Of a stretch of DNA of 64,000 nt, positions 22,602 through 64,000 are shown piece by piece. Within the stretch, counting starts at the first letter, position 1; each line of letters begins with the position of its first letter. The translations under genes were made by a program, and so were the position numbers. The DNA comes from a virus, in the IMG/VR virus record IMGVR_UViG_3300009376_001085, positions 1 through 64,000 of that record. One strand, 5' to 3'. The notes under the pieces were generated by a model that saw only the letters and a list, made by a program, of their open reading frames with translations, had not been told where the DNA came from and did no database searches.

Positions 22602-22763
22602 ATAAATGTAAGTGATCTTCAAGTAGAAGATGACGGTAAAACTGTAGTGTTACCTCTAGATGCACAAAAGGCATTAGGTTTAAAAGAAAATGATAAAGTT
22701 ATCCTTAAAAAAATAGCAAGAGGTGATAAAGCAATATTTGAAATAATAACAGATGAAAATTAA
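22581..22763 (+). CDS. AbrB/MazE-like small protein
   Basis: A 60-residue protein with VVLPLDAQKALGLKENDKVILKK, which resembles the AbrB/SpoVT swapped-hairpin domain (LPKEVRxALGLxxGDxV). Such domains bind DNA as regulators or antitoxins. No ribosome site is seen, so it depends on upstream translation, and an internal promoter overlaps its start. It overlaps queE by 11 nt. Confidence 0.5.
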   Translation: MENKTYNINVSDLQVEDDGKTVVLPLDAQKALGLKENDKVILKKIARGDKAIFEIITDEN

Positions 22764-47140: not shown

Positions 47141-47922
47141 TACCTTACATTTTTGATAATCTACAAGATAAAAATTTAATTAAAAATTTGCAAGAAACAG
47201 GTGTTGCAGTTTCGTATGAGCAAGAATTATCTGATAGTGCATTGGTTTCTTTTTGCAAAAATATTGGTAATTGCGAAACACCCGAAGCATTTATGAATTT
47301 AACCGAACACCCTGAAATATTTAAAGTAACAGGAAAACGCAACAACGACGGATCTAAAATAGGAATGTTTGGCGATACTGAATTAGGATGGCATAGTAAT
47401 GGTAATAGTAGACGCAACATAGACAAAATTTGTGTCGCATTATATTGTAAAATAAGCGACGAAAATACTACTACTAGTTTTTGTAACACAAGCGATCCGT
47501 TTTACGATTTATCAGACGAATTACAAGAGTATTATAAAAGTATAAAAATAAGATTGGCGTTTGTAAATAATACCATTTACCAATTAGATGAGGACGATCC
47601 TGAGTATCAATTAATGAGCAGATATCCTGGGAGCATAAGACCTTTAGTTGATATACACCCTCATACTGGTAAGTATTATTTTTATTTTCCTTATCATTTT
47701 ATAATAAAAGCATGGCATAATAGTAAAAAAATAAATCATAAAAAAATGATAGAAGATTTAAAACCTATCATTTTTAAATCCAAATATCAATATCATCATA
47801 TTTTTAAACAAGGCGATTTAGTATTAAGCGATCAACTTTGTACACTACACCGACGAACGCCAGTGCATGATGTGAATAGATTACTATACAGATTAGCACA
47901 TGATTATGATAGATGTACCTAA
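47137..47922 (+). CDS. TauD/TfdA-like dioxygenase
   Basis: A 261-residue protein with ELGWHSNGNSRR (His86; the following Asp of the family is Asn) and C-terminal LCTLHRRTPVHDVNRLLYRL (His238, Arg252). This resembles the TauD family, which oxidises small molecules with 2-oxoglutarate. The HxN change may weaken iron binding. Overlaps both neighbours. Confidence 0.6.
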   Translation: MIPYIFDNLQDKNLIKNLQETGVAVSYEQELSDSALVSFCKNIGNCETPEAFMNLTEHPEIFKVTGKRNNDGSKIGMFGDTELGWHSNGNSRRNIDKICVALYCKISDENTTTSFCNTSDPFYDLSDELQEYYKSIKIRLAFVNNTIYQLDEDDPEYQLMSRYPGSIRPLVDIHPHTGKYYFYFPYHFIIKAWHNSKKINHKKMIEDLKPIIFKSKYQYHHIFKQGDLVLSDQLCTLHRRTPVHDVNRLLYRLAHDYDRCT

Positions 47923-48541
47923 ACCATCTTATAAAAATTTTCCTATTCATAATAAAAAATTAGAAGTTCCGTTGTGTACAGAGTATACAATGGAAGACAT
48001 GGCCTATCTAGATACTCCTCAGGCTAAACCTATTTTTGAAAAACAAGCAGACATAATTATAGAAAAACAATCAAAAGGTATTGTAGATGTAGGTTGCCGG
48101 CATGGACCTGTAAACAGTATATTACATGAAAAAGGATACACAGATTATTTGTATATGGGATTTGATACGTCAGTAGAGCCTATAGAAATGGCAAAAAGCC
48201 AATGGTATAATTTTTCTAATATCGAATATAGACATGCAAATTGGAATAACATAAAAGACATAACTGTAAATTTTAATGTAGACCAAGTTATATGGAGTGG
48301 TGTTCTTTTATATAATCCTGATAGTCATAAAGAATTATTTGATAAATTAACTGTAGAACTATATAATAGTAACAATGCAATTATACAAGAACCTTGTCAT
48401 AATCAAATACATTGGGATGATAATTTAATATTAAAAACTATAGATTTATCATCATATAAAATGTATAGTAAATATAAAGAATATATTATAAAATGCAACA
48501 TATTTGCTGGCAATAGAATAATAATAGATGTAGAAATATGA
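47900..48541 (+). CDS. SAM-dependent methyltransferase
   Basis: A 213-residue class I methyltransferase-like protein with motif I GIVDVGCRHGP (about 60-70), YMGFDTSVEPIEMAK (motif II-like acidic strand) and VDQVIWSGVLLYNP. The C-terminus is Asn/Tyr/Ile-rich. Substrate unknown; within an operon of oxygenases it may tailor a metabolite or sugar. An internal ATG at 47906 is an alternative start. Confidence 0.72.
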   Translation: MIMIDVPKPSYKNFPIHNKKLEVPLCTEYTMEDMAYLDTPQAKPIFEKQADIIIEKQSKGIVDVGCRHGPVNSILHEKGYTDYLYMGFDTSVEPIEMAKSQWYNFSNIEYRHANWNNIKDITVNFNVDQVIWSGVLLYNPDSHKELFDKLTVELYNSNNAIIQEPCHNQIHWDDNLILKTIDLSSYKMYSKYKEYIIKCNIFAGNRIIIDVEI

Positions 48542-49116
48542 ATAAAAAATTAAAAGATTATATTCAATTAACACAATTTATATCTCATACGGAAGCCGAT
48601 GAAGTTGTTACTACATTAAATGAAGAAACTATATGGAAACCTTATCCGTATGAAAAAGAAAGTTATAATATATGTGTTCAAGAATATCCTAAAATACCAT
48701 ACTTGACAACATCATTAAATTTAGACCATACAGTTAGTAAATTTCTTGGGTCTAAAATTGACGTAATAATTAATAATTATATTAATAGTTTTTTACATGA
48801 TGTTTTTTGGTTTAAAAAATGGAGTGATAAATCTCATTTTCATTATATAAAATATCCAAAAAATACAGGAATGGAAACACATTGTGATCATGTTCGGCAT
48901 ACGTTTGATGGTAATCGACGGGGAATTCCTATTCTTTCTATTGTAGGTACATTTAATGACGAGTACGAAGGTGGTGAATTATTATTTTTACCAGATACAA
49001 AAATTAGATTAAATAAAGGAGAAGTTATTATTTTCCCTTCGAATTTTTTATACCCTCATAAAGTATTACAAATAACAAAAGGTATTAGATATTCATTTAT
49101 AGTGTGGGTTTGGTAA
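48538..49116 (+). CDS. Prolyl-4-hydroxylase-like 2OG-Fe(II) oxygenase
   Basis: A 192-residue protein with a complete site: His115 and Asp117 in METHCDHVRH, His174 in LYPHKVL and Arg184 in GIRYSFIVW. GGELLFLPD and GEVIIFPSN are also family-typical. Overlaps the methyltransferase by 4 nt. It probably hydroxylates a protein or small-molecule substrate. Confidence 0.8.
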   Translation: MNKKLKDYIQLTQFISHTEADEVVTTLNEETIWKPYPYEKESYNICVQEYPKIPYLTTSLNLDHTVSKFLGSKIDVIINNYINSFLHDVFWFKKWSDKSHFHYIKYPKNTGMETHCDHVRHTFDGNRRGIPILSIVGTFNDEYEGGELLFLPDTKIRLNKGEVIIFPSNFLYPHKVLQITKGIRYSFIVWVW

Positions 49117-49118
49117 AA

Positions 49119-49125
49119 ATAAATA
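49119..49125 (+). promoter_or_regulatory. ATAAATA late-type box 5 nt before a start codon
   Basis: AAATAAATAGTTGT then ATG at 49131; 5 nt from box to ATG, no Shine-Dalgarno. Same arrangement as at 28287, 31454 and 31747. Confidence 0.42.
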
Positions 49126-49130
49126 GTTGT

Positions 49131-49898
49131 ATGAAATATAAAATTGTAAAAACAAAATTAATATATAAAAATAATATTCCTATTAGGAATTATCAAAATT
49201 TAGATCCGCCCGGAGACAGAGATACATATGATAAATTACAAATTAATGACAAATATTTAGGTTATAAACAAATTATTTATACTCCTATAGATATGCCATT
49301 AATTAATGTAGATTTAAAACATATCGAATCATTAAGAAATGACCCTAAAATGGAATGGTCTACATTTGGTTGCGATCACGGTTCGGGGAAAGTATTACTC
49401 CTCATGGAAAATAATTTTTTGCATCCTTATGCAAATTCTAATTGGTTTGATTGGGTAGACACGGAAATACCGCATATAAAAAAATTTATCCAACAATTAC
49501 CATTTAAAACTATTCGACAATGTTCTTTTGTTTCTCCTCCAGGTAAATCTAATCCTCATTATGACGAACCTTCAAATATGGTCGAGATACTCCGTAAACA
49601 ATCTCCATCTCAATATAGAATACGATGGAGCAATATTACTGATCCAAAAAATGAAGTGTTTTATTTGACAAAAGATAGTGGCGAAACTAAAATTTATCCT
49701 GAATTGCCAACCGATACTAATACTTTTGTATATGATGGTAGTGTATATGAGCATGGTGCTGATAAAGGATTTCAAATGAGAAATAGATCCCAACTTGTTA
49801 TTTCAGGATGCTTAGATATTAAAAAGCATCATGTTTTACTAGATAAAAGCATTGAAAAATATAAAGAATATTATTTAATAAATAAATATTTTGAATAA
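49131..49898 (+). CDS. 2OG-Fe(II) oxygenase-like protein
   Basis: A 255-residue protein. His143 and Asp145 (SNPHYDEPSN), His208 (SVYEHGADKG) and Arg217 or Arg219 fit the iron and 2-oxoglutarate site. It starts at ATG 49131 after the ATAAATA box; a start at 49104 would overlap the previous gene. Longer than its neighbours of the same type. Substrate unknown. Confidence 0.65.
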   Translation: MKYKIVKTKLIYKNNIPIRNYQNLDPPGDRDTYDKLQINDKYLGYKQIIYTPIDMPLINVDLKHIESLRNDPKMEWSTFGCDHGSGKVLLLMENNFLHPYANSNWFDWVDTEIPHIKKFIQQLPFKTIRQCSFVSPPGKSNPHYDEPSNMVEILRKQSPSQYRIRWSNITDPKNEVFYLTKDSGETKIYPELPTDTNTFVYDGSVYEHGADKGFQMRNRSQLVISGCLDIKKHHVLLDKSIEKYKEYYLINKYFE

Positions 49899-49920
49899 AT
49901 TGCTTAAATACGTATATAAT
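49891..49920 (+). promoter_or_regulatory. Possible sigma70-type promoter
   Basis: TTGAAT at 49891-49896 and TATAAT at 49915-49920, spacer 18 nt; TTAGGA ribosome site follows before ATG 49937. It is weaker than the other promoters, and a CTTAAATA late-like box overlaps at 49903. Confidence 0.4.
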
Positions 49921-49936
49921 ATATTTAGGAAAACAA

Positions 49937-50605
49937 ATGTCAACAGAAAACCCAATAGCAAATGAATACATAATTGAACTTCCGCAATTAATTGATTTAT
50001 TGCCAACAAAAAATGAATTATTAACAATAAGTGAAACAAAAATAACGAGTAAAAATATTATTCCGGAATATCAGACAGGAGTGATTGCAAAGGATACAAG
50101 TGAAAATAAAGACCATGTTGGGTGGGATGCAACGACATGGTATTCTATAAATGATAATTCTAAAATCAATGATACTATTTCTAAATTTACTACCACTAAT
50201 CGTGTAACAAATGTAGATACGAACTCGTGGTTATGTACAAAAAAAGATGGCTTCTGGATTCGACCACACGTACATGTTCGGCCCGATGATAAAATTGCCG
50301 TTTTAATATATTCAATTTCTCAAGAAAGTTTTGATATAACTTATACAGATCAATGGATCGGTTCTTCGCTTGGAGATCCGATAGATTCGGATCTCTGGGA
50401 AAGCGATCCTTCCGATGATTCCGGACCATATAATGAGATTTTTTCAAATAGTTGCTCTTGCCCTGTATTGATTAATGGCCAAATTCCGCATTGTTTTAAA
50501 GAAACTAGTGCAAGAACAACTTTATTCATATCTATGCATTTTGAAAATACAAACTGGGATTGGTTATTAGAAAAACATACAGCCGGCAACTTACTAACTA
50601 TATGA
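49937..50605 (+). CDS. 2OG-Fe(II)-like protein, paralogue 1
   Basis: A 222-residue protein with WIRPHVHVRPDDK and LINGQIPHCFKETSART, arranged like the next gene. The first motif has HxH instead of HxD. The shared (L)I..xxIPHC block shows the two are related. It ends overlapping the next ATG by 4 nt. Confidence 0.55.
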   Translation: MSTENPIANEYIIELPQLIDLLPTKNELLTISETKITSKNIIPEYQTGVIAKDTSENKDHVGWDATTWYSINDNSKINDTISKFTTTNRVTNVDTNSWLCTKKDGFWIRPHVHVRPDDKIAVLIYSISQESFDITYTDQWIGSSLGDPIDSDLWESDPSDDSGPYNEIFSNSCSCPVLINGQIPHCFKETSARTTLFISMHFENTNWDWLLEKHTAGNLLTI

Positions 50606-51225
50606 TAAATGATTATGTTATAGAATTTCCTAAATTTAATAATTTATTTGATGAGGACCAATTATTAAACTCGTGCCGATTAAATAAAACATTTGCCGAA
50701 TGGAAAAAAGATCTATCTAGCAACGAAATTGACATAGCATCAAACATGGAGCACTTTCTTTCAGAAGACCCAGATGCTCATGCGGTTAAAAATTATGGAG
50801 TAACTTCATATGAAGTACCCGAAACACAACCAGAAGTAAAACATATATTTGAGGCCATTAATCAAGAATTAATGTGGAAAAAACCTATCGGATGGCTTAA
50901 TTGCAATAATGGCGATCAATGGACTAAACCACATATAGATGCAGTTCGTAATGCAGTATTTCAATTTCCAATTTATCCTAAGAATTATACATTAGTTTAT
51001 TTGGATAAAAATAATTGGAATAGGAATTCTTATCCCCAACCTAATCACATATGGGAACACAAAGTTTCTTGTCCGTTAATTGAAAATGTTTCCATTCCTC
51101 ATTGTGTATACGATAAAGGTATTAAAAGAATTCATTTTCAAATATCTTTATATTTTAAAGATTATAGTTGGGAGAAAATAAAAGAATATGTAAAAAATGG
51201 AGAACTTTTTAGTAAAAAAATATAG
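50602..51225 (+). CDS. 2OG-Fe(II) oxygenase-like protein, paralogue 2
   Basis: A 207-residue protein with the full site: His111 and Asp113 (WTKPHIDAVRN), His167 (SIPHCVYDKG) and Arg176 (IKRIHFQISL). The start at 50602 overlaps the preceding stop (ATGATAA). Substrate unknown. Confidence 0.65.
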   Translation: MINDYVIEFPKFNNLFDEDQLLNSCRLNKTFAEWKKDLSSNEIDIASNMEHFLSEDPDAHAVKNYGVTSYEVPETQPEVKHIFEAINQELMWKKPIGWLNCNNGDQWTKPHIDAVRNAVFQFPIYPKNYTLVYLDKNNWNRNSYPQPNHIWEHKVSCPLIENVSIPHCVYDKGIKRIHFQISLYFKDYSWEKIKEYVKNGELFSKKI

Positions 51226-51790
51226 CGATAATCCTGAACAATATCGTTCTATTATAGAAATATTTAGAAAAAAAACATTTCAAGAAGGCAACGAAAGTCT
51301 AAGTTACAAAAAATATAATCCTGATAATCCTGATATAGAGACATGGATGGTGTTTAATGAAACCCAAGATCTTATATCTATATCTGCAGGCGAAAAATCT
51401 CATTACACAAATGATCCAGACATTGCTTTAAGAATTTGCAGATACCATATATTAAAACCATTTCGCAGAACACATTGTGGTTTAATGATGGCTGAATATC
51501 AAATACAATGGGCTAGAGAACATAATTATCAAATTTTATATGTTACTCATGATATTAAAAATAGAGCGTTGAATGATTTATATCAACGAAAACGTAAAAT
51601 GCCATTACCATCATTTAAAAAATGGACAGAAGGTGAGTGGTATAAAAAATTACAACTAGAAAAAAATTTTTTATTTAAAACAGGAAATATGTTACAATAT
51701 GTTTATACTATTAGATTGTTTGATCCTAACTTTATATGGAATCCAAAATCAGATTACATAGTAGAAAAAAAACATAACGGAGATATTTAA
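51197..51790 (+). CDS. GNAT acetyltransferase-like protein
   Basis: A 197-residue protein. ICRYHILKPFRRTHCGLMMA, EYQIQWAREHNYQILYVTHD and NRALNDLYQRKRK follow the GNAT order of a phosphate-binding R/Q..G loop, helix and beta strand, though the R/Q-x-x-G-x-G/A loop is degenerate. It would transfer an acyl group from CoA. The last gene of the plus arm; its stop TAA shares bases with the stop of the convergent radical SAM gene. Confidence 0.6.
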   Translation: MENFLVKKYSDNPEQYRSIIEIFRKKTFQEGNESLSYKKYNPDNPDIETWMVFNETQDLISISAGEKSHYTNDPDIALRICRYHILKPFRRTHCGLMMAEYQIQWAREHNYQILYVTHDIKNRALNDLYQRKRKMPLPSFKKWTEGEWYKKLQLEKNFLFKTGNMLQYVYTIRLFDPNFIWNPKSDYIVEKKHNGDI

Positions 51791-52713
51791 TTAATTGTTT
51801 CTTTTCTCATTTGCATGTCTGTAAGACAAATACAAGCATGTTTGTTACATATAATAGGATCATTAGGAAGATTAATTATTCGTTTTTTAATATTTCCTAA
51901 TACCCACTCGCTATCCAGACCGCAAGCAGATCGTGTTATGGAATTATCTTCTCTAATACGGCACCCGTCTATTCCTGCATAACATTTCCAACCAAAAAAA
52001 TTATCTTTTCCGGTTAATTTAGCTTCTGCTGGATCATAATACTCATTATTTAAGTATAACAAATTAGTAATTAAAGACCAATCTACATTTGTTTTCTTAT
52101 TAAATAGCTTATTCCATTTTTTATGAGATAGAAATTGTTTTTGTTCATCAGTATAAGGTACATAGGCACCACCCTTATCTTCAACTAAAACTCTCATCAC
52201 ATACGAATTTGGATAATTTTTTAATTTGTCGTGTATGTAATAACAATTATCTAAAGACTGTTCCCAATGTGTTGGGTCTAATAAAACAGATATTACAATG
52301 GGTTTATGTTGATCGAAGATTTTACATATATTCACTATATGATCAGATTTAGCGAATTTTGTATGCACAGAAAGTATTAAGCCTGACAAATATTTTTGAT
52401 TTTCTTTCCACCAACGTAAAGTTCTAGAACCATTTGTTATAAAATGAGTATAAACATTTCTATTATATAATTCTTTCAATAAATTGGATATTTTGGGATT
52501 TAATGTAGGTTCTCCGCCAGTAAACCTAGCAGTAAGTTGCTTATATGGATACTTTTTTTTAATTTCATCAATACACCATAAAATATCATTATTATCTAAT
52601 CTAGTATTTCCTGCCCATACTAACGGTGAACAATAAGAACACCGATAATTACAAATTGTGTTTAATACTATGTCAGTTATAAAAATATTATTATTTTCAA
52701 GAGTTAATTTCAT
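51787..52713 (-). CDS. Radical SAM protein with Cys-rich C-terminus (a)
   Basis: A 308-residue protein starting at the ATG at 52713, which overlaps the QueC-like gene. CNYRCSYC (Cys21, 25, 28) binds the 4Fe-4S cluster and ARFTGGEPTLNP is the GGE SAM motif. The C-terminal GWKCYAGIDGCRIREDNSI, SACGLD and CNKHACICL hold extra Cys that may bind auxiliary clusters. The same tail (GW.C..G....IRE..SI.RS.C) is found in the gene at 53975, so they are paralogues. Reaction unknown. Confidence 0.78.
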   Translation of the reverse strand: MKLTLENNNIFITDIVLNTICNYRCSYCSPLVWAGNTRLDNNDILWCIDEIKKKYPYKQLTARFTGGEPTLNPKISNLLKELYNRNVYTHFITNGSRTLRWWKENQKYLSGLILSVHTKFAKSDHIVNICKIFDQHKPIVISVLLDPTHWEQSLDNCYYIHDKLKNYPNSYVMRVLVEDKGGAYVPYTDEQKQFLSHKKWNKLFNKKTNVDWSLITNLLYLNNEYYDPAEAKLTGKDNFFGWKCYAGIDGCRIREDNSITRSACGLDSEWVLGNIKKRIINLPNDPIICNKHACICLTDMQMRKETIN

Positions 52714-53356
52714 CTGAAAAACCCCATATTCGTTCCTGACACCACCAACATATACCACAATGTCCTAATCCCGGATCTTTATTACTTTGTTTTTCCCATT
52801 CACATGATCTAGTATGTACAAATAATTTATCTATTAAATTATACTCTCTATATATTTGAGCTATTTTCTTTTTATCTATATTACACCATGGCGTATAAAT
52901 TGTATTATCATATAATAGAACTTTGCGTTCGACTGTAGGATCTCTGTTTACTTCTGAAGTTTTTTCTATAAATGTATCAGTTATATATTTTGGCGGATTT
53001 GCAGTAATGCCTGTATATATAACATTTACTAATTTATTTTTTATATAATAATTTGTTTTATCAAATATATTACTTAATGTTTGGTGATCACAAAATGTAC
53101 TATGATGTTCTATATTTATATTTCCTGTTAACTCAATACATTTTTGAATAACATTATTAGTAATTGTTATATTTTTAAATTGTCTTGCTTTATTTCCTGA
53201 CGAAAAAATATAAATCTTGTTTTTAGAATATTTCATTAAAAAATATAAAAGCAAAGAACTATCTGCCCCGCCGCTACAACTTATACCGATAGGGCCTTCA
53301 TATATTTTTAAATTGACCCCAGATAAATCTAATTCTTTAAGTTCGACTAAATTCAT
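52697..53356 (-). CDS. QueC-like PP-loop ATPase
   Basis: A 219-residue protein with the PP-loop SCSGGADSSLLL (Ser28-Ser33) and a C-terminal Cys set Cys185, Cys200, Cys203, Cys206 in LGHCGICWWCQERIW, matching the zinc site of QueC, which turns carboxydeazaguanine into preQ0. The QueC motif after the PP-loop is weak, so a relative that adenylates another carboxylate is possible. It sits between a radical SAM gene and an oxygenase, 29 kb from queE. It may complete the deazaguanine path, or act in a separate pathway with the radical SAM enzymes. Confidence 0.6.
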   Translation of the reverse strand: MNLVELKELDLSGVNLKIYEGPIGISCSGGADSSLLLYFLMKYSKNKIYIFSSGNKARQFKNITITNNVIQKCIELTGNINIEHHSTFCDHQTLSNIFDKTNYYIKNKLVNVIYTGITANPPKYITDTFIEKTSEVNRDPTVERKVLLYDNTIYTPWCNIDKKKIAQIYREYNLIDKLFVHTRSCEWEKQSNKDPGLGHCGICWWCQERIWGFSDEINS

Positions 53357-53985
53357 GGCTCTAATAGATTTGTTACTGTTGATACAGATTCTTCGGTTAA
53401 TTTAACATTCATTATTAATACAATATGATCTTGGTCGTCATTGGCATTAAATACGGTATGTCGTTTGCAAGTATTTAAAAAATATAAATGACCGTAATTC
53501 CAAACAAGTATTTTATTTTGTTCATATATAAAAAATCCCCCATCTAACGGGTTACATACCTGTAAAGGAACAAGTAGTCTAAAACTATCTATTGTAGATC
53601 CAATATTATCAATATGAGTAGGAAAAAATCCCCCAGGAGACAACTTTAATATATGTGATCTAACCAACCATTCTTTAAAAGGATCACAATAAAACTTTAC
53701 TACATCATAAACAGGTGTCGGTATAATGAAATCAGATTCAGATATATTTGTATTATTTTCTTTATTATATTCATACAAACTATCTAAGTCAGGACCAGGG
53801 CCTAAAATACCATCTAAATTAGTTATACTTAATCCCCAACGATTTATATTTTTTCTAGGATTATATTTCGCCCAATTATTATTAAATTGTTTTAAATTAT
53901 TTAATATTAAATCAGGGTGGGTATTTATAGTTAATTCAATTTGATCTCCATAGGCAGTTATGGTGTTAAATAATTCAAAACTCAT
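53353..53985 (-). CDS. 2OG-Fe(II)/AspH-like oxygenase
   Basis: A 210-residue protein with FFPTHIDNIG (His124, Asp126), FRLLVPLQV and TCKRHTVFNAN (His176), fitting the aspartyl/asparaginyl hydroxylase-like fold; PLDGGFFIYEQ is also in keeping. It overlaps the QueC-like gene by 4 nt and the next radical SAM gene by 11 nt, so they are co-translated. Substrate unknown. Confidence 0.7.
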   Translation of the reverse strand: MSFELFNTITAYGDQIELTINTHPDLILNNLKQFNNNWAKYNPRKNINRWGLSITNLDGILGPGPDLDSLYEYNKENNTNISESDFIIPTPVYDVVKFYCDPFKEWLVRSHILKLSPGGFFPTHIDNIGSTIDSFRLLVPLQVCNPLDGGFFIYEQNKILVWNYGHLYFLNTCKRHTVFNANDDQDHIVLIMNVKLTEESVSTVTNLLEP

Positions 53986-55129
53986 ATGTTTTATCTCCTG
54001 GCCACAACGGCATTTTAGTTCCCTGTTTACGTTTGGGTATTTTGCTATCCGCTGAACTTACACAACTATTACTAATACAAACTTTTGGGCCATCAAATAA
54101 TTTAAAATCATTATAAATGTAACCTAATGGTTTATCGTCACAACTATAACTTCGTTTTATACTACCGTCTGGTTCTCGTATTATAATGCTTCTATGCCCA
54201 CTACTACATTCCCACCCTTTAAAGTTATTAAATTCAAAAGCATTAAACCGTTCTGCTTGGTCCATAAACCAATATTTTTTATTTTTATCTCTAAATTCTA
54301 CTTGAAAATGTTGCGGTACATTATTATTTTCTTCCCAGTAAATTGGGTCGGGGCGTTTGACAAATGTTGGTTTAGGTCGTGTAACATGTTTATTTTTTGC
54401 TTCAGTAAATCCACGCTGAGGCATTCCATTGTGTAACTGTTCAAGCATCTTATCATCATATCCTTTAACTACAAAATTGGCGTGAGGATCACTTTGTGGC
54501 TTTAATGTAACATTAATACCACGTTCGTGAAAATACATTACTTCATCCATTATTTTCCAAAACCATTCAGGAACCATTACACAATTAATTGTTATCTGTA
54601 CATCATGTTCTTGGCATAATTCTAATTTATCTGCTAATAGTTTACGCCGCTTTATTTCACTATTATACTCACGATGGTAACTGCATGTAATACTTGCTCG
54701 ATGAAATGGTGCCGCGGCTTTCACATACTTTTCAAACCAACGTATGCCGGGTGAACAGTTGCTCGTCATATGTACAGATGTATAATTTGTATTTTTAATA
54801 TCATCACCTAGATACTTGAGTATTTCAAGATAACCAGGATGCAAAGTAGGTTCGCCGCCAGACAAACTAAAATGAAAACTATTAAATCCTCGCTCCCTAG
54901 CTTGTTTTTTAATTTTATCAATTGTTTCAAGACATAATTCTGTAGGTCTATGGTCCTTATCATCGCTCCTCCCGTGTTCCCAACAATAACTGCAATGGTA
55001 ATTACAAAAGCGGCCAAGCAACCAAGAGACTGTAAATAAATCTCTGTAGAGCATATTACGTTGGCCTACTCTTACAAGTTTATCAAATGGAATTTTAGTA
55101 AAATCGTATGTACTTGTTATTTTATTCAT
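53975..55129 (-). CDS. Radical SAM protein with Cys-rich C-terminus (b)
   Basis: A 384-residue protein. CNYHCSYC (Cys42, 46, 49) and FSLSGGEPTLHPG are the core motifs. The C-terminal GWECSSGHRSIIIREPDGSI, RSYSCDD and KVCISNSCVSS align with the tail of the protein at 51787, so it probably binds further clusters. The N-terminal 40 residues are an extension. Reaction unknown. Confidence 0.8.
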   Translation of the reverse strand: MNKITSTYDFTKIPFDKLVRVGQRNMLYRDLFTVSWLLGRFCNYHCSYCWEHGRSDDKDHRPTELCLETIDKIKKQARERGFNSFHFSLSGGEPTLHPGYLEILKYLGDDIKNTNYTSVHMTSNCSPGIRWFEKYVKAAAPFHRASITCSYHREYNSEIKRRKLLADKLELCQEHDVQITINCVMVPEWFWKIMDEVMYFHERGINVTLKPQSDPHANFVVKGYDDKMLEQLHNGMPQRGFTEAKNKHVTRPKPTFVKRPDPIYWEENNNVPQHFQVEFRDKNKKYWFMDQAERFNAFEFNNFKGWECSSGHRSIIIREPDGSIKRSYSCDDKPLGYIYNDFKLFDGPKVCISNSCVSSADSKIPKRKQGTKMPLWPGDKTYEF

Positions 55130-56021
55130 AATGAATGTATTTTGTTATTGCAAAATCTATATCAGAAACATCATTAAATAATTGAATATTTCTTTCTACC
55201 CATTTTTTATATTCTTCAAACAAGCCATCCTTAAATATATCTAATTGGTTAGGAGTAATAAAAGAAATATTAGGTTTAGTTTCTTTTATTTTATTTAATA
55301 TTTTTAAATATTCATTAAACATATCATTCTTTTCAAACTCATTAAAACAAGCATCCGGATTTTTTGATGATGACATTAATTGAAGCATTTTATATACCGT
55401 ACTCTCTTCTGGTAGACCATATGGTAGTTTTTGTTTTCTATTTTTTTTTACTTTTTTAATTAATACATCGTATGGTTCAGCTTGATCACCAACTTCTCTC
55501 GTCCTGTTCCTTTCTGTTACCTCTAATGTTGGCTCGTTTTGTTCTTTCCAATCATTATATCGGCAAAGAAATTCAAATTCATTTTTTACTCGTAAAATAT
55601 GAACCCATAATATTCTTAAAGCAAAACTATTTGATACAAAAAAAATACATTTGGTATTTGGTAATATACTAGTTAAGTTATAATCATGATGGGCTAGCCA
55701 AAAAGTTCTTTCATATGATTTACCCCAATTATTAATATAATATATATATTCTTCAGATTCGAGATCAATTATATCTAGATATTCTTGTTTTGTTTTAAAA
55801 TATGTATCAAATGAGTATATATATTTCAATAGGTGTGTTTCTGGTTCGTCGGTTGCTTCTTTAAACCTATGCCCACTTACTTCTGGCCAACCTGGAATTG
55901 TGGTTTGGCTATGATATCTATTCCACGGTTTAGTTGAATACATTATATCAGGCAAAATATAACTACCTATAAATTCGCCGCCGGCTCCTGGCGGATATAC
56001 CAATACAGTTTGTTCAGTCAT
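55122..56021 (-). CDS. Hypothetical protein, sulfotransferase-like N-terminus
   Basis: A 299-residue protein starting MTEQTVLVYPPGAGGEFIGS. The PGAGGEFI loop resembles the nucleotide-binding loop of some sulfotransferase-type P-loop proteins but lacks a Walker Lys. CIFFVSNSFALRILW could be the second phosphosulfate site. The rest is charged and helical. The call is tentative. Confidence 0.4.
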   Translation of the reverse strand: MTEQTVLVYPPGAGGEFIGSYILPDIMYSTKPWNRYHSQTTIPGWPEVSGHRFKEATDEPETHLLKYIYSFDTYFKTKQEYLDIIDLESEEYIYYINNWGKSYERTFWLAHHDYNLTSILPNTKCIFFVSNSFALRILWVHILRVKNEFEFLCRYNDWKEQNEPTLEVTERNRTREVGDQAEPYDVLIKKVKKNRKQKLPYGLPEESTVYKMLQLMSSSKNPDACFNEFEKNDMFNEYLKILNKIKETKPNISFITPNQLDIFKDGLFEEYKKWVERNIQLFNDVSDIDFAITKYIHYE

Positions 56022-56035
56022 TAAGAATTGTTTTT

Positions 56036-57061
56036 TTATTCTCTCTCATTTATTTTTTCTAAAAAATATTTTGCTATCCAATTATGTGATAAATGGCCAG
56101 GATGTCCTAGTTCTCGTCCAACATCATTAGAATCCATAGTATCAAAATTGCCTTCGTCAAACCATTTATTAAAAGGTATTTCTTTACTATCTGAATATAG
56201 ATATACAAACTTCGTTACTCCATTTTTATTACATAGATATCGAATTGCATCAATATTTTTCTTAGCATTAGTTTTTGATTGATATGCATTTGAAAGTTCG
56301 TATATTAGATAATATTTAAAATATTCACGTATTTCTCTTGTCTGACCATGACTAACAGTACCAAGGTTTACAAAAGAAAACATTCTTGATTTATTTGCAC
56401 AACTACTTGTGTCTAATCCTAACTTTTGTTGTTCAAAGTAATTATTAACTTTATGATCTATATCTACAAACGAACGTCTACCTACGTTTGGTCCTAGCAT
56501 ACATACATATTTGGGTTTTAAAATAGGTAACCAATATGATGCATATGTATAACATGCATCGTGTCCGGCACCTGGTAATCCAAAATTCCAACAATTTAAG
56601 TCTAATTCTTTACTTATTTTAACCGGCCATATATCATTATAATGCATTCCAGTTCCATATGTTAAACTGCATCCTAAGAACATAATACCGTCACCTTCGT
56701 ATGGATCCGATGTTCGAAATCCGTGGTTATTATAATAATAAGTTAATGCTTCGGGTGGTACAACTTCAGAACTATTAACCCATACCTCATTTTTATTCTC
56801 TTTGTCATATTTTGGGTCAATGTCTTTTATAAAATCATAATTAGATAGCCATCCGGCGTTTTCTAGTATAGATTTTGCTTTTGCATTTTTTAAGTGATCG
56901 TTCCAAGTATCTCTGTTATCGCCACAGTCCCACAAATAAGTTCTATTTGTTTTCCAACTATATTCATGAAAGTATGGTATTTCTTCATTGTAATTAAATG
57001 CTCCGTCTTTCCACCAGTCAACTACTTTATCAAAATCTACTTTATTGGCGTTCATTGTCAT
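56036..57061 (-). CDS. SGNH hydrolase-like protein
   Basis: A 341-residue protein with YYNNHGFRTSDPYEG, then IMFLGCSLTYGTG (Ser132 candidate), NFGLPGAGHDACY, MLGPNVGRRSF and C-terminal ELGHPGHLSHNWIA as the Asp/His-block equivalent. It is a paralogue of the gene at 43333. Deacylation of a cluster product or a glycan is possible. It overlaps the upstream twitch gene by 4 nt. Confidence 0.72.
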   Translation of the reverse strand: MTMNANKVDFDKVVDWWKDGAFNYNEEIPYFHEYSWKTNRTYLWDCGDNRDTWNDHLKNAKAKSILENAGWLSNYDFIKDIDPKYDKENKNEVWVNSSEVVPPEALTYYYNNHGFRTSDPYEGDGIMFLGCSLTYGTGMHYNDIWPVKISKELDLNCWNFGLPGAGHDACYTYASYWLPILKPKYVCMLGPNVGRRSFVDIDHKVNNYFEQQKLGLDTSSCANKSRMFSFVNLGTVSHGQTREIREYFKYYLIYELSNAYQSKTNAKKNIDAIRYLCNKNGVTKFVYLYSDSKEIPFNKWFDEGNFDTMDSNDVGRELGHPGHLSHNWIAKYFLEKINERE

Positions 57062-58347
57062 ATATACCTTTCAATTCGAGGATGAAGATAATCTAAAACA
57101 TTTGTATTTCTAATTTTATCTTGCATAATTGTGTGTTTTTTAAAATGAAAGCGTAACTCATCAATACTATTAGGTTTAATAGTAGGATATGATTCTTCAG
57201 GAAATATTTCCCATATTGGTTCAGTTAAACAAGTCTGTACAGGCATTAATGTTTTTTCGATAAAATATTCATCCTTTATGTTACATTCTTTTATTAGATC
57301 ATTAATTTCTTTTACTATGAACTTTTTATCATCGTCAAATAAAATAGCAGGATGGAAATGAGGTGGTTCTTCACATGCTTGAATATAAGGGGGTGCAATA
57401 TTATCACCTTGTTTATATAAATTATAAAAGAATTTACCCCAGGTTTTAACATCAAAAATATTATACATTTGCAATACTAAATTTATAGATAAATGTACAA
57501 GATTTTCCATTTCACGTAATGAATATACATTATTAATAACTTGATCCCATTTTGCATTTGTTCGTATATAATCATATGTTTTTCCGGTTCCGTCTAAACT
57601 TGCACAAACATTCAACTTTTTAAATTGTTTAAATAATTGCCAATGTTTATTAAAATTTGTACAATTAGACGTAATATTTAAATTTAAATCAGTATTACCT
57701 TCCTCTATTAATTTTTCCAAAAATGATATTGTATCGGGATCAACTGTAGGCTCGCCTCCTAAAATATTCAACCTTTTAATAAGTTTAAAATCAATAGTAG
57801 AAATAAATTTAATTATATCCATATTAGATGTTTCCTTACGCCATCGATCGCCTCGATAATATTGATGAATTTCTGGATTGGCTGTTACTTCTTTTAATAT
57901 TTCTGTACTATTTCCTGGATCACACATACGACATTTTAAGTTACAAACATTACCTGGTCTAATATCTAAGGCCAATGGTTGTTTAAATTCGTTACCATAA
58001 TTTATATCATCTGTTACAGTACCTCCATCACGTTCTATATATTCTAATCTGTCACTGCTCCATCCTTTTCGTTCTCTATCTCCACATACATGACATTCGA
58101 TAGGTTCTTCGCCTTTTAATAATTTTTTCCGTATTTCTAAAAGTTGTTTATCTTTATAAAAAAATTCTTTAAGACGATTACTAGCCGGTATGCCAGATAC
58201 TTTTTCACTGAATGCTGATCGTGTTTTTCGACCCTCACAACACATTTTTATAGAATCCTTGCCAGCATTAATATAGATATGCATAAATGGTGCCGGGCAA
58301 TAAAAATCTTTACGTATTTTTATTTTTTCATGTAACTCTGATCTCAT
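57058..58347 (-). CDS. Twitch-type radical SAM protein (c)
   Basis: A 429-residue protein. The N-terminus carries FYCPAPFMHIYINAG and IKMCCEG, then ECHVCGD at 84-90, before the core CNLKCRMC (Cys135, 139, 142) and ILGGEPTVDP. The N-terminal Cys groups are shared with the three genes upstream in the operon. This layout is that of 'twitch domain' radical SAM proteins. One to two extra clusters are likely. Substrate unknown. Overlaps both neighbours by 4 nt. Confidence 0.8.
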   Translation of the reverse strand: MRSELHEKIKIRKDFYCPAPFMHIYINAGKDSIKMCCEGRKTRSAFSEKVSGIPASNRLKEFFYKDKQLLEIRKKLLKGEEPIECHVCGDRERKGWSSDRLEYIERDGGTVTDDINYGNEFKQPLALDIRPGNVCNLKCRMCDPGNSTEILKEVTANPEIHQYYRGDRWRKETSNMDIIKFISTIDFKLIKRLNILGGEPTVDPDTISFLEKLIEEGNTDLNLNITSNCTNFNKHWQLFKQFKKLNVCASLDGTGKTYDYIRTNAKWDQVINNVYSLREMENLVHLSINLVLQMYNIFDVKTWGKFFYNLYKQGDNIAPPYIQACEEPPHFHPAILFDDDKKFIVKEINDLIKECNIKDEYFIEKTLMPVQTCLTEPIWEIFPEESYPTIKPNSIDELRFHFKKHTIMQDKIRNTNVLDYLHPRIERYI

Positions 58348-59720
58348 TCTAAATATCTTTTTAATTGTGGCGTAATCTCTAAAACATTTGTTTTTCGTAT
58401 TTTGTCTGCTACTAATGTGTGACGAACAAATTGTTCTTTATTATATTGAATATTAGGTATCATCCAACGATCTGCTCTTTTTTCTATATTTTCTGGTATG
58501 TTATCTGTAAATTTAGATTCTTTTCTATAATGACTTACATCTTTATTAAGATCTGAATATACTTGTTGAAAACATTCTTGTTCTTTATCATTTATGTTAT
58601 AGTCATATATTACTCTATCTATTTCGCTTCTAATAAAATCTTTATGATCTTCATCTAGCCAATGTACATTTAAATGCATTGGTTCAACTATCGGATGTAG
58701 TGCTGGTGGATCTATAAATTCAAACCGTCGACTTTGTTCTATCATCCATGCAACATGATAATAGATATGAAATACGTTATATACATTTATAACACTATTG
58801 AATCCTATACTATAAATATTAGGTAACTCACATGCTTTTAAAAAGTTTGCGTGAACTTTTTTCCATTCACACCCTGTTCTACAATATTCAAATACTTTTC
58901 CTATTCCGTCAACACTAAATCTTAATTGTAATCTTTTAAATTGAGAAAGTAATTCAACTGCTTGTTTAGGCCAAACTGTGCCATTAGTAATTATGTGTAA
59001 TTTTATATTTTTAGCATCGCCATGGTCTACTAATTGCTTCCATATTTTAAAACAATTAGGATCTATTAACGTTTCGCCTCCAGACATTTTCAACCATCGA
59101 ACATCTGTTAAATCATAATTTTCATATAACCTAGAATTATCTTGGTCCCAGTCAATAGATTCTGCCATTCTCATTTGCCATTTATTATCAGTATACATAT
59201 CCCAATATGTGCCTTCTAATAAATCATGATTATCTAGTACTTCTTTTTCTATTTTACTACTCCAGATGCTACAACAAGATCGACATTTAGCATTACATAG
59301 TTTACCAGGACGTAAGTCTAAATCAATTGGATGGCCATATTTATTACCTGTTTTAATATTAAGCCCCATATCTTCTACTGTTAAATCTGCATCAGAATAC
59401 TTCTCTATAAATTCTACTCTTGTACTTTCTCTATCAACTCCGATTTCTTCATAGTGTTTACAATAATCGCACGGACGAGATCCATTTTCGAGAACCGGCC
59501 ATTCGTTATTTAAAAATGATTTTCGTATGCTTTTAATTTTATCACCAGTCCATAATCGATGTTGTTGGGCCGCAACTGAATCGCCTTTTTTAATTGCAGG
59601 AGTATCTATTCTATCTATAATATCACTCATACAACATAATTTAAATGCACTATTCCCCATACTTGTGTACGTATGTAAAAACGGAGCAGGACAAAATACT
59701 TTTTTTAACTGTTCTCTCAT
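58344..59720 (-). CDS. Twitch-type radical SAM protein (d)
   Basis: A 458-residue protein with FCPAPFLHTYTSMGNSAF, KLCCMSD, RPCDYCKHYEE, then core CNAKCRSC (Cys142, 146, 149; a fourth Cys follows at 150) and KMSGGETLIDP, where GGE is followed by Thr. Same organisation as the neighbouring gene, so an old duplication. Substrate unknown. Confidence 0.8.
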   Translation of the reverse strand: MREQLKKVFCPAPFLHTYTSMGNSAFKLCCMSDIIDRIDTPAIKKGDSVAAQQHRLWTGDKIKSIRKSFLNNEWPVLENGSRPCDYCKHYEEIGVDRESTRVEFIEKYSDADLTVEDMGLNIKTGNKYGHPIDLDLRPGKLCNAKCRSCCSIWSSKIEKEVLDNHDLLEGTYWDMYTDNKWQMRMAESIDWDQDNSRLYENYDLTDVRWLKMSGGETLIDPNCFKIWKQLVDHGDAKNIKLHIITNGTVWPKQAVELLSQFKRLQLRFSVDGIGKVFEYCRTGCEWKKVHANFLKACELPNIYSIGFNSVINVYNVFHIYYHVAWMIEQSRRFEFIDPPALHPIVEPMHLNVHWLDEDHKDFIRSEIDRVIYDYNINDKEQECFQQVYSDLNKDVSHYRKESKFTDNIPENIEKRADRWMIPNIQYNKEQFVRHTLVADKIRKTNVLEITPQLKRYLE

Positions 59721-62158
59721 AATTCAGCTTTTCGTTTTGCTTTCAATGCCTCACGAATTCCTATTTTAATATATTTTTCATCATCTTTAAAATGTAAACC
59801 GGAAGGTTGCCACCATTTATCTTTATCATGAACCCATGGAAATTTTTTAGGTGCTAATGCCACATGCATACATTTTGTTTCGAATAAATCATATTCTTCA
59901 CATAATTCTTGATGCCACTTCAAATATTTATTTGGAATATAATCACAACTAAAATTTTTCATTTGATTAATTCCAAGAAAAGCCATTGAAAGAGTTAAAT
60001 GATTATAATCATTTGTAATAGCAATAGATCCATCTGTAAAATTACTATATCTTATTCCTATTCTTGAATGACCGAGTCCTAAACTTTTACTAAGACTAAA
60101 ACAAACTTGAGTAATTGCAGGATGATTAAAATCAAAATCAATATCATAACAAGTACCAAACCATGCACAATCAATTAACACTGGTATATTTTTTTCATGA
60201 CAAGTATCTAATGTTTGTTTATAAAAAGGTACTTTATTACCATTTCCACAAAAAGGCATGCTAATAATCACCCAATCATTTTCATCAAGTGGTTCTTCGT
60301 AACCATCATAAATGTTGTCTATAAATTTCCAATTATCAACAATTCTTCTATGATAGTGATATTCACCTCTATAAAATCTTAGACGTCTATCTTTATATCT
60401 ATAGTATGCTTCATCAAAACTTTGAGTAGTACCAATTGTAATATCTCGCTCACTAAATCTATCTAAACCTCTTACAGTATTTAATTTAGTTGCACATATC
60501 CATTCATGGATAGTATCTAAAAATTCTTGCTTGCATTCCCAAAAACCAGGAGCTTCAAATTCTTTTCTCCATTCCATATCTCTTAGAGAATATTGAAACT
60601 TGGGGTCAAATACAGCATGATGTTTATCTTGAAAGTAATTGCCTTTACCCATCATAGAAATTATTTTATTAGTTTTGAAATAATTTTTTGAGTCTAAATG
60701 TTTAATTATAGGTTCTGCAATTTCTGGTAATATTTCTTCAAATTTTTGATCTCTATGTTTATCAAGAGCAATTGTTCTATCCATAAATTCCTCAATATAT
60801 TTTGATTCGTCTTTAGCCCACATATAACTAGTAATTGAATTTAAACATTTTTGGGTAACATCAATAACATATTCCGGTCCTTTAATAGCTTCATAGTGTC
60901 TCCATACTTTCTTTTTATGTACTAAATTAGGAAATATGTTTTTTAAAAAGTTATCATATTTTTGTTGTACTAACTCTTTTGCCTCTAAAGGTAATGCTCT
61001 GATATTATAATATACGGGATTGTGTAAATGATGCATACTAAAAAATATATGTTTACCATTTATATTGAATCTCTTAAAATTTTGAGCTATTTCCCATTCA
61101 ATTAATTCTGGAATATATAATACATTAAAAACTTGTACGGTTGTAGTAAACCATCCATTTATATTATCAGAGTTATCTATTTTTCTTAATGCTTGCTCAA
61201 TTTTTTGAAAATTGCTAGGATATCTTATATACTCATTTATATGTTTTATACCATCCACACTTCCGCCAATCTCGACTAACCTAAAGTGTTTCCATAAGTC
61301 AAAACATTTATCAGGTATATTAACTAGGTTTGAATTATAATCAAGAGAAATATGCTTGGCTCTATCAGTTTCAATTAACTTTTCAAGTAAATCATATTGA
61401 GCTTTAGCTAATGTTGGTTCACCACCACTTATATGAATCATTTCAATATTGGGTGCATTTTCAACCAATTCATTAAAGATATCAGTTCTTTCATGCCAAC
61501 TGTATGGATCAAATCCATCAATAACTACATTATTTTTATTATCAAGTTTTAAATTAACATATTTGTCATTAGCACCATCATATCTAAACTTTTTCCGTCC
61601 AAAAGCATGATACCAATCCTCCTTCCATGGACTACTTTCTGTTGGTCCACACATTCTACATTTTAAATTACATAAATTTCCTAATCTTACATCTGTATGT
61701 AAAATAGGTGAATTAGGTTTTAAAGAACCATCAATATCAGTAAATTTATATGCATCTTTAATAGTAAAAGATTTTAGAATTTGTTTTTCAACTAATGGTG
61801 CTTCCCAAGAAGGACATTTTAAATTACCAGTATTTTTATTACGCTCAGCTCTCATTTCATAACGACGTCTATCAACTACCCTTCTACTATTTTGACCTGC
61901 ATCTTCTTCTTCGTTACATCGCTGACACACAGGATGTCTTTCTCCCTTTAACATAGATAATCTAACATCTTTTAAAAGAGAACAATTCATTGCTTCACTA
62001 ATAGATGCATTATCAGCAGTCATTATTTCATTATTATTTTTTCTGCATACACCTCTTGTTTCTCTATGGGTATTTGCCTGAACACACATACGATATTGAC
62101 CATTATTATTAATACTGAAACTAGTCCATGGTACAGGACAATAACTTTTATTTTCCAT
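59717..62158 (-). CDS. Radical SAM / PLP aminotransferase-like fusion protein (e)
   Basis: An 813-residue protein. Residues 1-170 have YCPVPWTSFSINNNG, YRMCVQAN, HPVCQRCNEEE; core CNLKCRMC is Cys163, 167, 170; IHISGGEPTL is at 241-250. The radical SAM part runs to about 480. From about 560 the C-terminal part resembles fold-type I aminotransferases: VLIDCAWFG (Asp663) and VCFSLSKSLGLGHSRIG with Lys691 as likely PLP Lys. The stand-alone protein at 45760 matches this end. Two chemistries in one chain suggest a substrate handed from radical to PLP step. It overlaps both neighbours. Confidence 0.72.
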   Translation of the reverse strand: MENKSYCPVPWTSFSINNNGQYRMCVQANTHRETRGVCRKNNNEIMTADNASISEAMNCSLLKDVRLSMLKGERHPVCQRCNEEEDAGQNSRRVVDRRRYEMRAERNKNTGNLKCPSWEAPLVEKQILKSFTIKDAYKFTDIDGSLKPNSPILHTDVRLGNLCNLKCRMCGPTESSPWKEDWYHAFGRKKFRYDGANDKYVNLKLDNKNNVVIDGFDPYSWHERTDIFNELVENAPNIEMIHISGGEPTLAKAQYDLLEKLIETDRAKHISLDYNSNLVNIPDKCFDLWKHFRLVEIGGSVDGIKHINEYIRYPSNFQKIEQALRKIDNSDNINGWFTTTVQVFNVLYIPELIEWEIAQNFKRFNINGKHIFFSMHHLHNPVYYNIRALPLEAKELVQQKYDNFLKNIFPNLVHKKKVWRHYEAIKGPEYVIDVTQKCLNSITSYMWAKDESKYIEEFMDRTIALDKHRDQKFEEILPEIAEPIIKHLDSKNYFKTNKIISMMGKGNYFQDKHHAVFDPKFQYSLRDMEWRKEFEAPGFWECKQEFLDTIHEWICATKLNTVRGLDRFSERDITIGTTQSFDEAYYRYKDRRLRFYRGEYHYHRRIVDNWKFIDNIYDGYEEPLDENDWVIISMPFCGNGNKVPFYKQTLDTCHEKNIPVLIDCAWFGTCYDIDFDFNHPAITQVCFSLSKSLGLGHSRIGIRYSNFTDGSIAITNDYNHLTLSMAFLGINQMKNFSCDYIPNKYLKWHQELCEEYDLFETKCMHVALAPKKFPWVHDKDKWWQPSGLHFKDDEKYIKIGIREALKAKRKAEL

Positions 62159-64000
62159 AGTTATATAACTCTTCTAGCTCAGGAAATATTTCACAAAAAT
62201 TTAATTTGCGAACTACTTCTAACTTTCTAATATATTCGTTTGTTAATGGCAATAAATGCGATAGGTCTTCTGACCACATAAAATCTATTAATGATTGAAG
62301 TTTTCTTATACCAGTTGGTTTTTCTAATGCGTCAGTATAATGCTCGAAATTTTGTTCTAACCATTTATACAAATCAGTATACTCGTCGGATGCTTTTTCT
62401 TTTAATTCTTTTGGCAAACATTTTACACTTAAAAATTTAGGATTGTATAAAAAATGAATTCCTATCATGCCACCATGAACAGGCCACTTGTTTATTTCTA
62501 TTAATTCGGGTTGAGATAGTTTCCATTTTATTAACTCTGGTATATGAATAATATTGAAAATACTAGCGGTAGTATCTATATTTAATCTGACATTTGGATT
62601 CTCTTTTGAAAAATTATTATATTTTTTTAAGTTTTCAAGCGTTAAATCAAATTCACTCGGATATCGTAACCATTTATGTTTTAGATTTATTCCGTCAATA
62701 CTTGCGGCAACTTCGACAAAATTTAATCTTTTAAGAAGATCCAATAACTCATTATCGCATACCTGAATATTAGTATTAAATCTTAAATTCATTTTTGGAG
62801 ATGCATATTCGATAAATTCTCTAAATTCATTAATTATAGTTGGTTCGCCCCCTAATATATAAGCATCATTCATAAACTTCTGAGTGGCTAACTCGTCCCA
62901 TGTTACTTTGTTTTTATACCAATCATATCCACCTCTTTGCTCCTTACCTTTAGACCATTCCATTTGTTTGTATAATTTATGGCTTATATTGTCAGAATTT
63001 ATAATTGTTTTCCAATCTTTAACCCAATAACTACTGTCATCGGGGTTACATGTTGCACATGCTAAATTACATTTATTCCCTAACTTTAAATCAACATAAT
63101 GTATATTTGCAGGAGCAGATCCATCAGGTGTTGTATTCCAAACAATAGAATCATAATTTAATTTTGAAAACCATTTTTTATTTTCCCAATTTCTTTTACT
63201 ATTATATCCAACTTCTTCTTCTTTATAACATTTTTGGCATTCTCGAGGTTTCTCACCTTTTAACATTGCCAATCTAACATCTCGCATATATTTGGTATTC
63301 CACTGTTCCTTCCAATTATCGTGTTTTAAATTAACCAATTCGCCGTTGTCTTTTCTGTTACAACCAACCATAGGATGATCTTCATCGCTTCCACTATTAG
63401 CAGTACAACATAATTGCATATTGCCTGTTGTTCGTGTACTAAGATGAATCCATGGAAGTATGCAAAATCCGTTGTTTTCTTTTTCCCAAGGTGCTACCGG
63501 AGCATTATCTAGATATGCAATCATTTCTGGATCTAAATGATTGTGGTAGTCTTGTTTTCTATTTTTGTCAAAAAATTCTGTAAATTTTTTGAGTTCTTTA
63601 TGTTTCAGATCTCTAATCGGTAAATTACTATCAACGTTTTCTACAAAATTATTGAAGTATTCTATTCTTGGTTCTATTCCCGGAATACCTTTAACATCTT
63701 TTACAAATTTTTTATATGCTTTTTTTAGCATAGATTTAGGTAAGAATAATGGATTTAGTTCGCTTTGTTCAGGAATCATTTGAAAATCAATACATATATC
63801 TATTAATTCAGGATTAATAAAACCACAATATTTTTCATAAAAATTACTTGCCCATCGATAAATTTCTCCTAAATTAAAAATATTATATGGCTGAGCAACA
63901 ATTGAAAAACCTATAAGTGCTTTTGGAAGGATCTCATTTTCTTGGGCCAAGAAAAAAAGATTATTATTTTGACAAAATTCAAAAAGGTTTGTAATACTTT
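62148..64000 (-). CDS. Twitch-type radical SAM protein (f), tandem and truncated at window edge
   Basis: The frame continues without a stop to the right edge, so the gene is partial. Counting from the TTG at 63950, core CNLACATC is residues 294-301, with FCILPWIHLSTRTTGN, QLCCTAN and RECQKCYKEE before it, and ILGGEPTI after it. The upstream stretch, including IVAQPYNIFNLGEIYRW, resembles the segment after the core in the sister proteins (VQVFNVLYIPELIEW). So a first radical SAM unit probably precedes this one. The 3' end overlaps the fusion gene by 11 nt. Confidence 0.72.
   Translation of the reverse strand, partial: SITNLFEFCQNNNLFFLAQENEILPKALIGFSIVAQPYNIFNLGEIYRWASNFYEKYCGFINPELIDICIDFQMIPEQSELNPLFLPKSMLKKAYKKFVKDVKGIPGIEPRIEYFNNFVENVDSNLPIRDLKHKELKKFTEFFDKNRKQDYHNHLDPEMIAYLDNAPVAPWEKENNGFCILPWIHLSTRTTGNMQLCCTANSGSDEDHPMVGCNRKDNGELVNLKHDNWKEQWNTKYMRDVRLAMLKGEKPRECQKCYKEEEVGYNSKRNWENKKWFSKLNYDSIVWNTTPDGSAPANIHYVDLKLGNKCNLACATCNPDDSSYWVKDWKTIINSDNISHKLYKQMEWSKGKEQRGGYDWYKNKVTWDELATQKFMNDAYILGGEPTIINEFREFIEYASPKMNLRFNTNIQVCDNELLDLLKRLNFVEVAASIDGINLKHKWLRYPSEFDLTLENLKKYNNFSKENPNVRLNIDTTASIFNIIHIPELIKWKLSQPELIEINKWPVHGGMIGIHFLYNPKFLSVKCLPKELKEKASDEYTDLYKWLEQNFEHYTDALEKPTGIRKLQSLIDFMWSEDLSHLLPLTNEYIRKLEVVRKLNFCEIFPELEELYNYGK

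Follow-up and report, generated by a model that had tools for sequence, protein, structure and literature searches.

Ten adjacent genes occupy the minus strand at positions 51787-64000 of the window, which is the whole 64,000-nucleotide stretch analysed here and corresponds to bases 1-64000 of a 99,131-bp IMG/VR virus record (G000). All ten open reading frames of the original prediction were found at their places (Table 1). The single 14-nt gap was also confirmed, and the overlaps, predicted to span 4-20 nt, measure 4-11 nt except in the first pair, where the overlap is 62 nt with the GTG start at 52758 or 17 nt from an internal ATG. The predicted operon is real but much longer than ten genes, as the window edge does not bound it and the minus-strand genes go on until the record stops. 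The complete array comprises 47 genes over about 47 kb, from about 52 kb to the record end at about 99 kb. The ten genes thus form its 3' end, with the 323-aa radical SAM (rSAM) protein encoded by the last gene of the array. Neighbouring genes overlap at 37 of the 46 junctions, and the widest gap is 76 nt. The last open reading frame in the window is indeed an rSAM, but represents the C-terminal half of a 1417-aa protein rather than a whole gene. The DNA polymerase of G000 is closest to those of jumbo phages; the virus is a large marine tailed phage and the array is operon-like. The window yielded no tRNA or Rfam match and hence no hint of the host.

Table 1. Genes of the array and other features of the record (positions in the record; the window covers 1-64000)
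Feature	Position	Strand	Basis
rSAM, 323 aa, CNYRCSYC, GGE and C-terminal Cys	51787..52758	-	PF04055 35.5 bits, over cut-off
PP-loop ATPase, 219 aa, QueC-like C-terminal CxxC motif	52697..53356	-	PF06508 26.6 bits, cut-off 22
Probable Asp/Arg-hydroxylase-like 2OG oxygenase, 210 aa	53353..53985	-	PF05118 20.4 bits, just below cut-off 22.6
Core rSAM (rSAM-6), 384 aa	53975..55129	-	PF04055 49.7 bits
299-aa protein, PPGAGGEF P-loop-like start	55122..56021	-	no profile match
SGNH-hydrolase-like protein, 341 aa	56036..57061	-	DUF6473 20.3 bits, below cut-off 27
N_Twi rSAM, 429 aa	57058..58347	-	NF033640 257 bits, cut-off 170; PF04055 over cut-off
N_Twi rSAM, 458 aa	58344..59720	-	NF033640 250 bits; PF04055 below Pfam cut-off
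rSAM-PLP fusion, 813 aa	59717..62158	-	NF033640 320 bits; PF04055 over cut-off
1417-aa protein, two N_Twi rSAM domains and ~520-aa N-terminal domain	62148..66401 (window part 62148..64000)	-	NF033640 556 bits over two domains; PF04055 over cut-off
Core N_Twi rSAM, 466 aa	66395-67795	-	NF033640
SPASM rSAM gene seemingly split by SGNH-like gene	68432-70139		
Core SPASM rSAM	70139-71200	-	
Core methyltransferase-like protein	72308-73069	-	motif reading only
Core GT-A glycosyltransferase, 226 aa	73047-73727	-	predicted fold
Sodium:solute symporter, 491 aa	75489-76964		SSF 84 bits
Na/phosphate-cotransporter-like gene	11341-11835		by eye
Tgt/DpdA-like gene	12638-14170	+	by eye
FolE	19744-20421	+	
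QueE	22753-23592	+	
Acyl-CoA-desaturase-like gene	45156-45809		by eye
Run of small proteins	46466-51225	+	
TauD (within this run)	47137-47922	+	

Radical SAM proteins of the array

As predicted, six proteins in the window are rSAM proteins, each with a CxxxCxxC motif and an rSAM profile match (PF04055 or NF033640). These sites were checked for chance occurrence, and the motif was found in 16 array proteins versus 0.15 expected from residue-shuffled proteins. PF04055 matches 17 places in the record, 12 of them over cut-off, and all lie on the minus strand at 52-99 kb inside the array. Among the 17 rSAM domains of the array, ten belong to NF033640 (N-terminal-twitch rSAM, hereafter N_Twi), at 198-421 bits against a curated cut-off of 170 bits, which is a whole-protein score. 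This cut-off is passed by the 429-, 458-, 813-, 1417- (two domains), 466-, 383-, 403-, 462- and 568-aa proteins. The four long rSAMs that had been called twitch-type are accordingly NF033640 members, at 250-556 bits, whereas the 323- and 384-aa rSAMs (24 and 32 bits vs 170) possess only the generic rSAM domain. The array domains keep the invariant N-terminal Cys set and the CxxxCxxC motif of NF033640, an NCBIfam family without assigned function. Unlike the family as catalogued, they are used in several copies together, along with a conserved core; one copy is fused to a PLP-type domain and two are fused in tandem. None of the array rSAMs is a known metabolic equivalog, every equivalog score being far below cut-off. 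The alignment of nine paralogues was too divergent for use as a search profile.

The 813-aa protein consists of an N_Twi rSAM (residues 3-482) followed by a fold-type-I PLP aminotransferase-like part (about 485-813) with an FSLSK lysine. As a single query it returned only copies of the same virus. Its C-terminal ~330 residues align with stand-alone bacterial proteins of 280-310 aa, whose genes are near or adjoin N_Twi rSAM genes, and the alignment contains an invariant D179 and K207, the latter being the lysine of the FSLSK-type motif. A PDB search with a profile of these C-terminal homologues gave PLP enzymes in 18 of 18 matches (best E 0.003). Pfam Aminotran_1_2 matches 5 of the 11 members of this set, with the single viral sequence just under cut-off. 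Given the matches to PLP fold-I enzymes and the invariant Asp and Lys, the 813-aa chain therefore unites an rSAM with a PLP-type domain.

The remaining labels of the original prediction fared unevenly. The QueC-like ATPase is a PP-loop ATPase whose C terminus carries a QueC-type zinc motif, but it does not qualify as a QueC equivalog, since it has no NCBIfam QueC match and is barely over the Pfam QueC cut-off. Its relatives occur in 28 of the 78 viral loci compared below, and in several copies in Bdellovibrionales arrays. The oxygenase and SGNH labels are plausible, although both profile matches fall below cut-off. A second Asp/Arg-hydroxylase-like protein (218 aa) further along the array is over the PF05118 cut-off, and the SGNH-like protein has weak relatives in 3 loci. 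No match in Pfam, NCBIfam or PHROGs backs the sulfotransferase-like label of the 299-aa protein. Relatives of the 323-aa rSAM are present in 55 of the 78 viral loci, mostly as members of the wider rSAM-6 group, and rSAM-6 orthologues in 41 (up to 71% identity).

Outside the array, the plus strand carries a deazaguanine-type set, QueE included, and a run of small proteins, several of them oxygenase-like, converges on the array. An acyl-CoA-desaturase-like and a Na/phosphate-cotransporter-like gene were also seen.

A conserved core in viral relatives

The 466-aa N_Twi rSAM has relatives at about 120 IMG/VR stretches, of which 80 (62-100% identical) were kept. Comparison of the loci revealed a core of constant order: GT-A glycosyltransferase, methyltransferase-like protein, SPASM rSAM, N_Twi rSAM and the 384-aa rSAM-6. 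Among 78 viral loci, limited to 10 kb around the 466-aa N_Twi gene so that the counts are lower bounds, the glycosyltransferase-like and methyltransferase-like genes were each found in at least 67, the SPASM rSAM and N_Twi each in all 78, and rSAM-6 as its own cluster in at least 41. The core recurs over many phage lineages, with variable tailoring genes within and around it. Moreover, all 27 tested records of 64-256 kb are rich in rSAMs (5-24 rSAM and 5-22 N_Twi matches in each); such density thus characterises a widespread phage group. No phage in INPHARED was found with the core glycosyltransferase or rSAM-6.

The 226-aa core protein gave no sequence-profile match. Its AlphaFold model (pLDDT 90) was compared using Foldseek, and each top match had a GT-A or a nucleotidyltransferase fold (E about 1e-4, with a TM-score of only ~0.44); the protein is thus predicted to adopt a GT-A fold. 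For the core N_Twi model, the best Foldseek matches were BlsE, acting on a sugar-nucleoside, and the peptide enzymes SuiB and SkfB, none of them significant (E >= 0.02). Sequence-based PDB profile searches with the N_Twi, glycosyltransferase and methyltransferase-like families returned nothing useful.

The variable tailoring set comprises extra N_Twi rSAMs, 2OG oxygenases, carbamoyltransferase, B12 rSAM, PP-loop ATPase, SGNH-like and PLP-domain proteins. The G000 array further encodes a carbamoyltransferase, an SSF symporter, TauD and Asp/Arg-hydroxylase-like oxygenases, a B12-type rSAM, a cytidylyltransferase-like protein and an APS-kinase-like protein. The array of a relative, G015, contains unmistakable deoxysugar genes; it encodes DegT, sugar C- and O-methyltransferases of the Methyltransf_13/14 and TylF types, two UDP-sugar dehydrogenases, an epimerase, NTP and cytidylyl transferases and a carbamoyltransferase. 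Within the G000 array, a SPASM rSAM gene is seemingly split by an SGNH-like gene, in the order 198-aa rSAM half, 283-aa SGNH-like open reading frame and 103-aa SPASM half; L022 has the same layout.

A precursor peptide, which according to the original prediction could lie beyond the window edge, was not found in the extended array, in which the only small open reading frames encode 46 aa and 103 aa (SPASM) and gaps do not exceed 76 nt. A leader-like or core-peptide-like repeat common to all loci was not found either. In many relatives, a highly conserved 75-aa gene (cluster 5; L030, L037, L053 and others) separates the methyltransferase-like gene from that of the SPASM rSAM; it is absent from G000 and from the bacteria tested. 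We rejected it as a precursor, as it is conserved throughout in 42 relatives and missing from G000.

The genomic position of the array was examined in five full-size relatives (233-257 kb). On one strand, they show a baseplate wedge gene (PHROG 10646), a giant virion structural protein, fibre-like genes and a block of cl22, cl19 and cl13 proteins, a glycosyltransferase, and finally the core-bearing rSAM array. Two exceptions were seen: in G001 the rSAM genes come after the glycosyltransferase and the core is elsewhere in the linear record, and in G025 cl22 was not detected. A cl22 homologue, EST35_0123 of Pseudomonas phage PA5oct, is marked as detected by ESI-MS/MS and adjoins a gp10-like baseplate gene. 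As the G000 record stops within its array, we infer tail linkage in G000 from these relatives; the other flank of its array is syntenic with G015.

Counterparts in Bdellovibrionota

The 466-aa query found no relative among GTDB contigs. A degenerate motif scan of these contigs gave matches in Bdellovibrionales/Oligoflexia MAGs only, with a narrow pattern that may miss other phyla. Four bacterial genomes searched contain 12-42 N_Twi matches each, and about 15 of 291 Bdellovibrionota genomes, on contigs of up to 1.6 Mb, possess a clear orthologue of the core N_Twi (660-800 bits). Most or all core genes are present in the bacterial loci (L131-L138, L154-L167), among them the glycosyltransferase and methyltransferase-like genes. 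Bacterial and phage proteins share 53-65% identity for N_Twi, 54-65% for rSAM-6 and 37-51% for the SPASM rSAM. The neighbourhood comparison proposed in the original prediction uncovered a conserved gene order in viruses, but the idea of a phage-specific pathway falls, given core orthologues 53-65% identical on Bdellovibrionota chromosomes.

Despite the shared core, the bacterial arrays differ from that of the phage in showing membrane-protein pairs in place of baseplate genes. Polysaccharide-type genes were seen by eye near some bacterial cores (G070, G116) and not near others. One locus, G195, retains the fibre-like cl22 block in phage order together with the core. This block (L162:16388-19891), virion-fibre-like and beside pheT, may be a prophage remnant or a domesticated block. 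Most Bdellovibrionota cores have no fibre gene, which is therefore not needed for core function. In G028, contig 275 (L131-L133) carries about 20 rSAM genes and three PP-loop ATPase copies within 45 kb, with membrane-protein pairs, a Bdellovibrionales array nearly as dense as that of the phage. In three gene trees, viruses and bacteria are split by a single branch, so that one exchange is enough. Far-outgroup roots disagree on the direction of transfer, the N_Twi root falling within bacteria and the rSAM-6 root within viruses.

A putative function of the array

The co-linear conserved core and the overlapping genes on one strand give good support to the predicted dedicated biosynthetic pathway. 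Its product had been suggested to be, for example, a nucleobase, a glycan or a small peptide, of which a glycan fits best. Given the GT-A enzyme in the core and the clear deoxysugar genes in the G015 array, we tentatively favour, with slightly less than even confidence, a late, tail-linked pathway for a heavily tailored glycoconjugate of virion fibres or the host surface. Initially, glycosyltransferases would start or extend a sugar, possibly on a virion protein. The core rSAMs with their auxiliary Fe-S clusters could then perform radical steps on the conjugate, such as dehydrogenation, epimerisation, or formation of carbon-carbon or carbon-sulfur bonds. Finally, the variable enzymes might carbamoylate, hydroxylate, aminate, methylate or acylate it. 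The likeliest acceptor would be a baseplate-proximal fibre protein of the same late region, modestly preferred to a host surface polysaccharide. Consistent with such a glycoconjugate are also the core order in 78 viral loci, the tail synteny and the carbamoyltransferase in both G015 and G000. Against it, G000 has few classical nucleotide-sugar genes, the synteny is that of relatives, most Bdellovibrionota cores are without a fibre gene, and the N_Twi Foldseek matches are not significant.

SPASM/twitch rSAM enzymes of known function act on peptides more often than on sugars, a further point against a glycoconjugate. It raises the alternative that the rSAMs crosslink or otherwise modify tail-fibre or baseplate proteins directly, in a RiPP-like manner, with glycosylation as one of several modifications. 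The fibre genes upstream of the array on the same strand in full-size relatives, the fibre-like gene retained in G195 and the Asp/Arg-hydroxylase-like genes all agree with this alternative. The weak Foldseek matches of the core N_Twi model, to BlsE on the one hand and to SuiB and SkfB on the other, would suit a peptide or protein product as well as a sugar-based one. We nevertheless consider direct protein modification rather unlikely, as most bacterial cores lack a fibre-like gene, the loci share no leader-like or core-peptide-like repeat, and the nucleotide-sugar genes of G015 sit poorly with a reaction on peptides alone.

Less probable still is a diffusible secondary metabolite that would give the infected cell a competitive edge or ward off other phages. 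The carbamoyltransferase, oxygenases, PLP, PP-loop and B12 rSAM proteins do resemble antibiotic tailoring, the array includes a symporter gene, and Iyer et al. 2021 (PMC7824862) put forward such a product as one option for cyanophage clusters that have no rSAM. However, we saw neither a scaffold synthase (PKS, NRPS or RiPP precursor) nor a dedicated efflux exporter, and the array adjoins tail genes.

The nucleobase product, as a DNA hypermodification extending the phage deazaguanine pathway, appears very improbable. QueE, FolE and a Tgt/DpdA-like gene do occur in the window and the PP-loop ATPase is QueC-like, but the first three are separate from the array, at 12-24 kb on the opposite strand, the core-bearing relative G001 gave no polB or dpdA match, and the core is present in bacterial chromosomes too. 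Generic Fe-S auxiliary metabolism supplementing that of the host, as Nishimura et al. 2017 suggested when a 12-rSAM phage was first noted, deserves hardly any credence, given that no array rSAM is a known metabolic equivalog.

Marine phages rich in rSAMs are already known. The T4-like marine phage TARA_ERS488813_N000010 has 12 rSAM genes, read as Fe-S metabolism (PMC5332604). It resembles G000 as a large rSAM-rich marine phage, and the passage on it describes no core, operon context or bacterial counterpart. The host recognition cluster of pelagimyophages is hypervariable and tail-linked, with glycosyltransferases and rSAM cassettes (PMC7029224). There, rSAMs are occasional cassettes, whereas in the G000 array they dominate around a fixed core. 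That cluster lies between VrlC and gp14 with tail fibres; in the G000 relatives the array follows the baseplate wedge and fibres, VrlC and gp14 were not identified, and the G000 record breaks off within its array. Cyanophage capsule or secondary-metabolite clusters of 8-12 genes, described without rSAM (PMC7824862, Iyer et al. 2021), share carbamoyltransferase, 2OG oxygenases and methyltransferases with the G000 array, which differs in being rSAM-rich and having 47 genes. A literature search short of most subscription journals and preprints turned up no previous account of the core, of its counterpart in Bdellovibrionota or of the rSAM-PLP fusion.

In summary, this phage group spends tens of kilobases on rSAMs, varied freely around a fixed core. 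Such enzymes depend on Fe-S clusters and a powerful reductant, and come at a high cost to a virus. A bolder and more doubtful proposal than the glycoconjugate pathway itself is that large marine phages furnish their own tail fibres with a fast-diversifying glycoconjugate or crosslink, via a multi-enzyme rSAM pathway that Bdellovibrionota share, so that the receptor-binding apparatus would be diversified combinatorially by enzymes rather than by sequence change. The core is a defined five-gene set for expression, and its bacterial counterpart provides another system, which may be culturable, for the same NF033640 product. Should that product be located on the virion or on the host envelope, it would represent a new layer of phage-host recognition chemistry.
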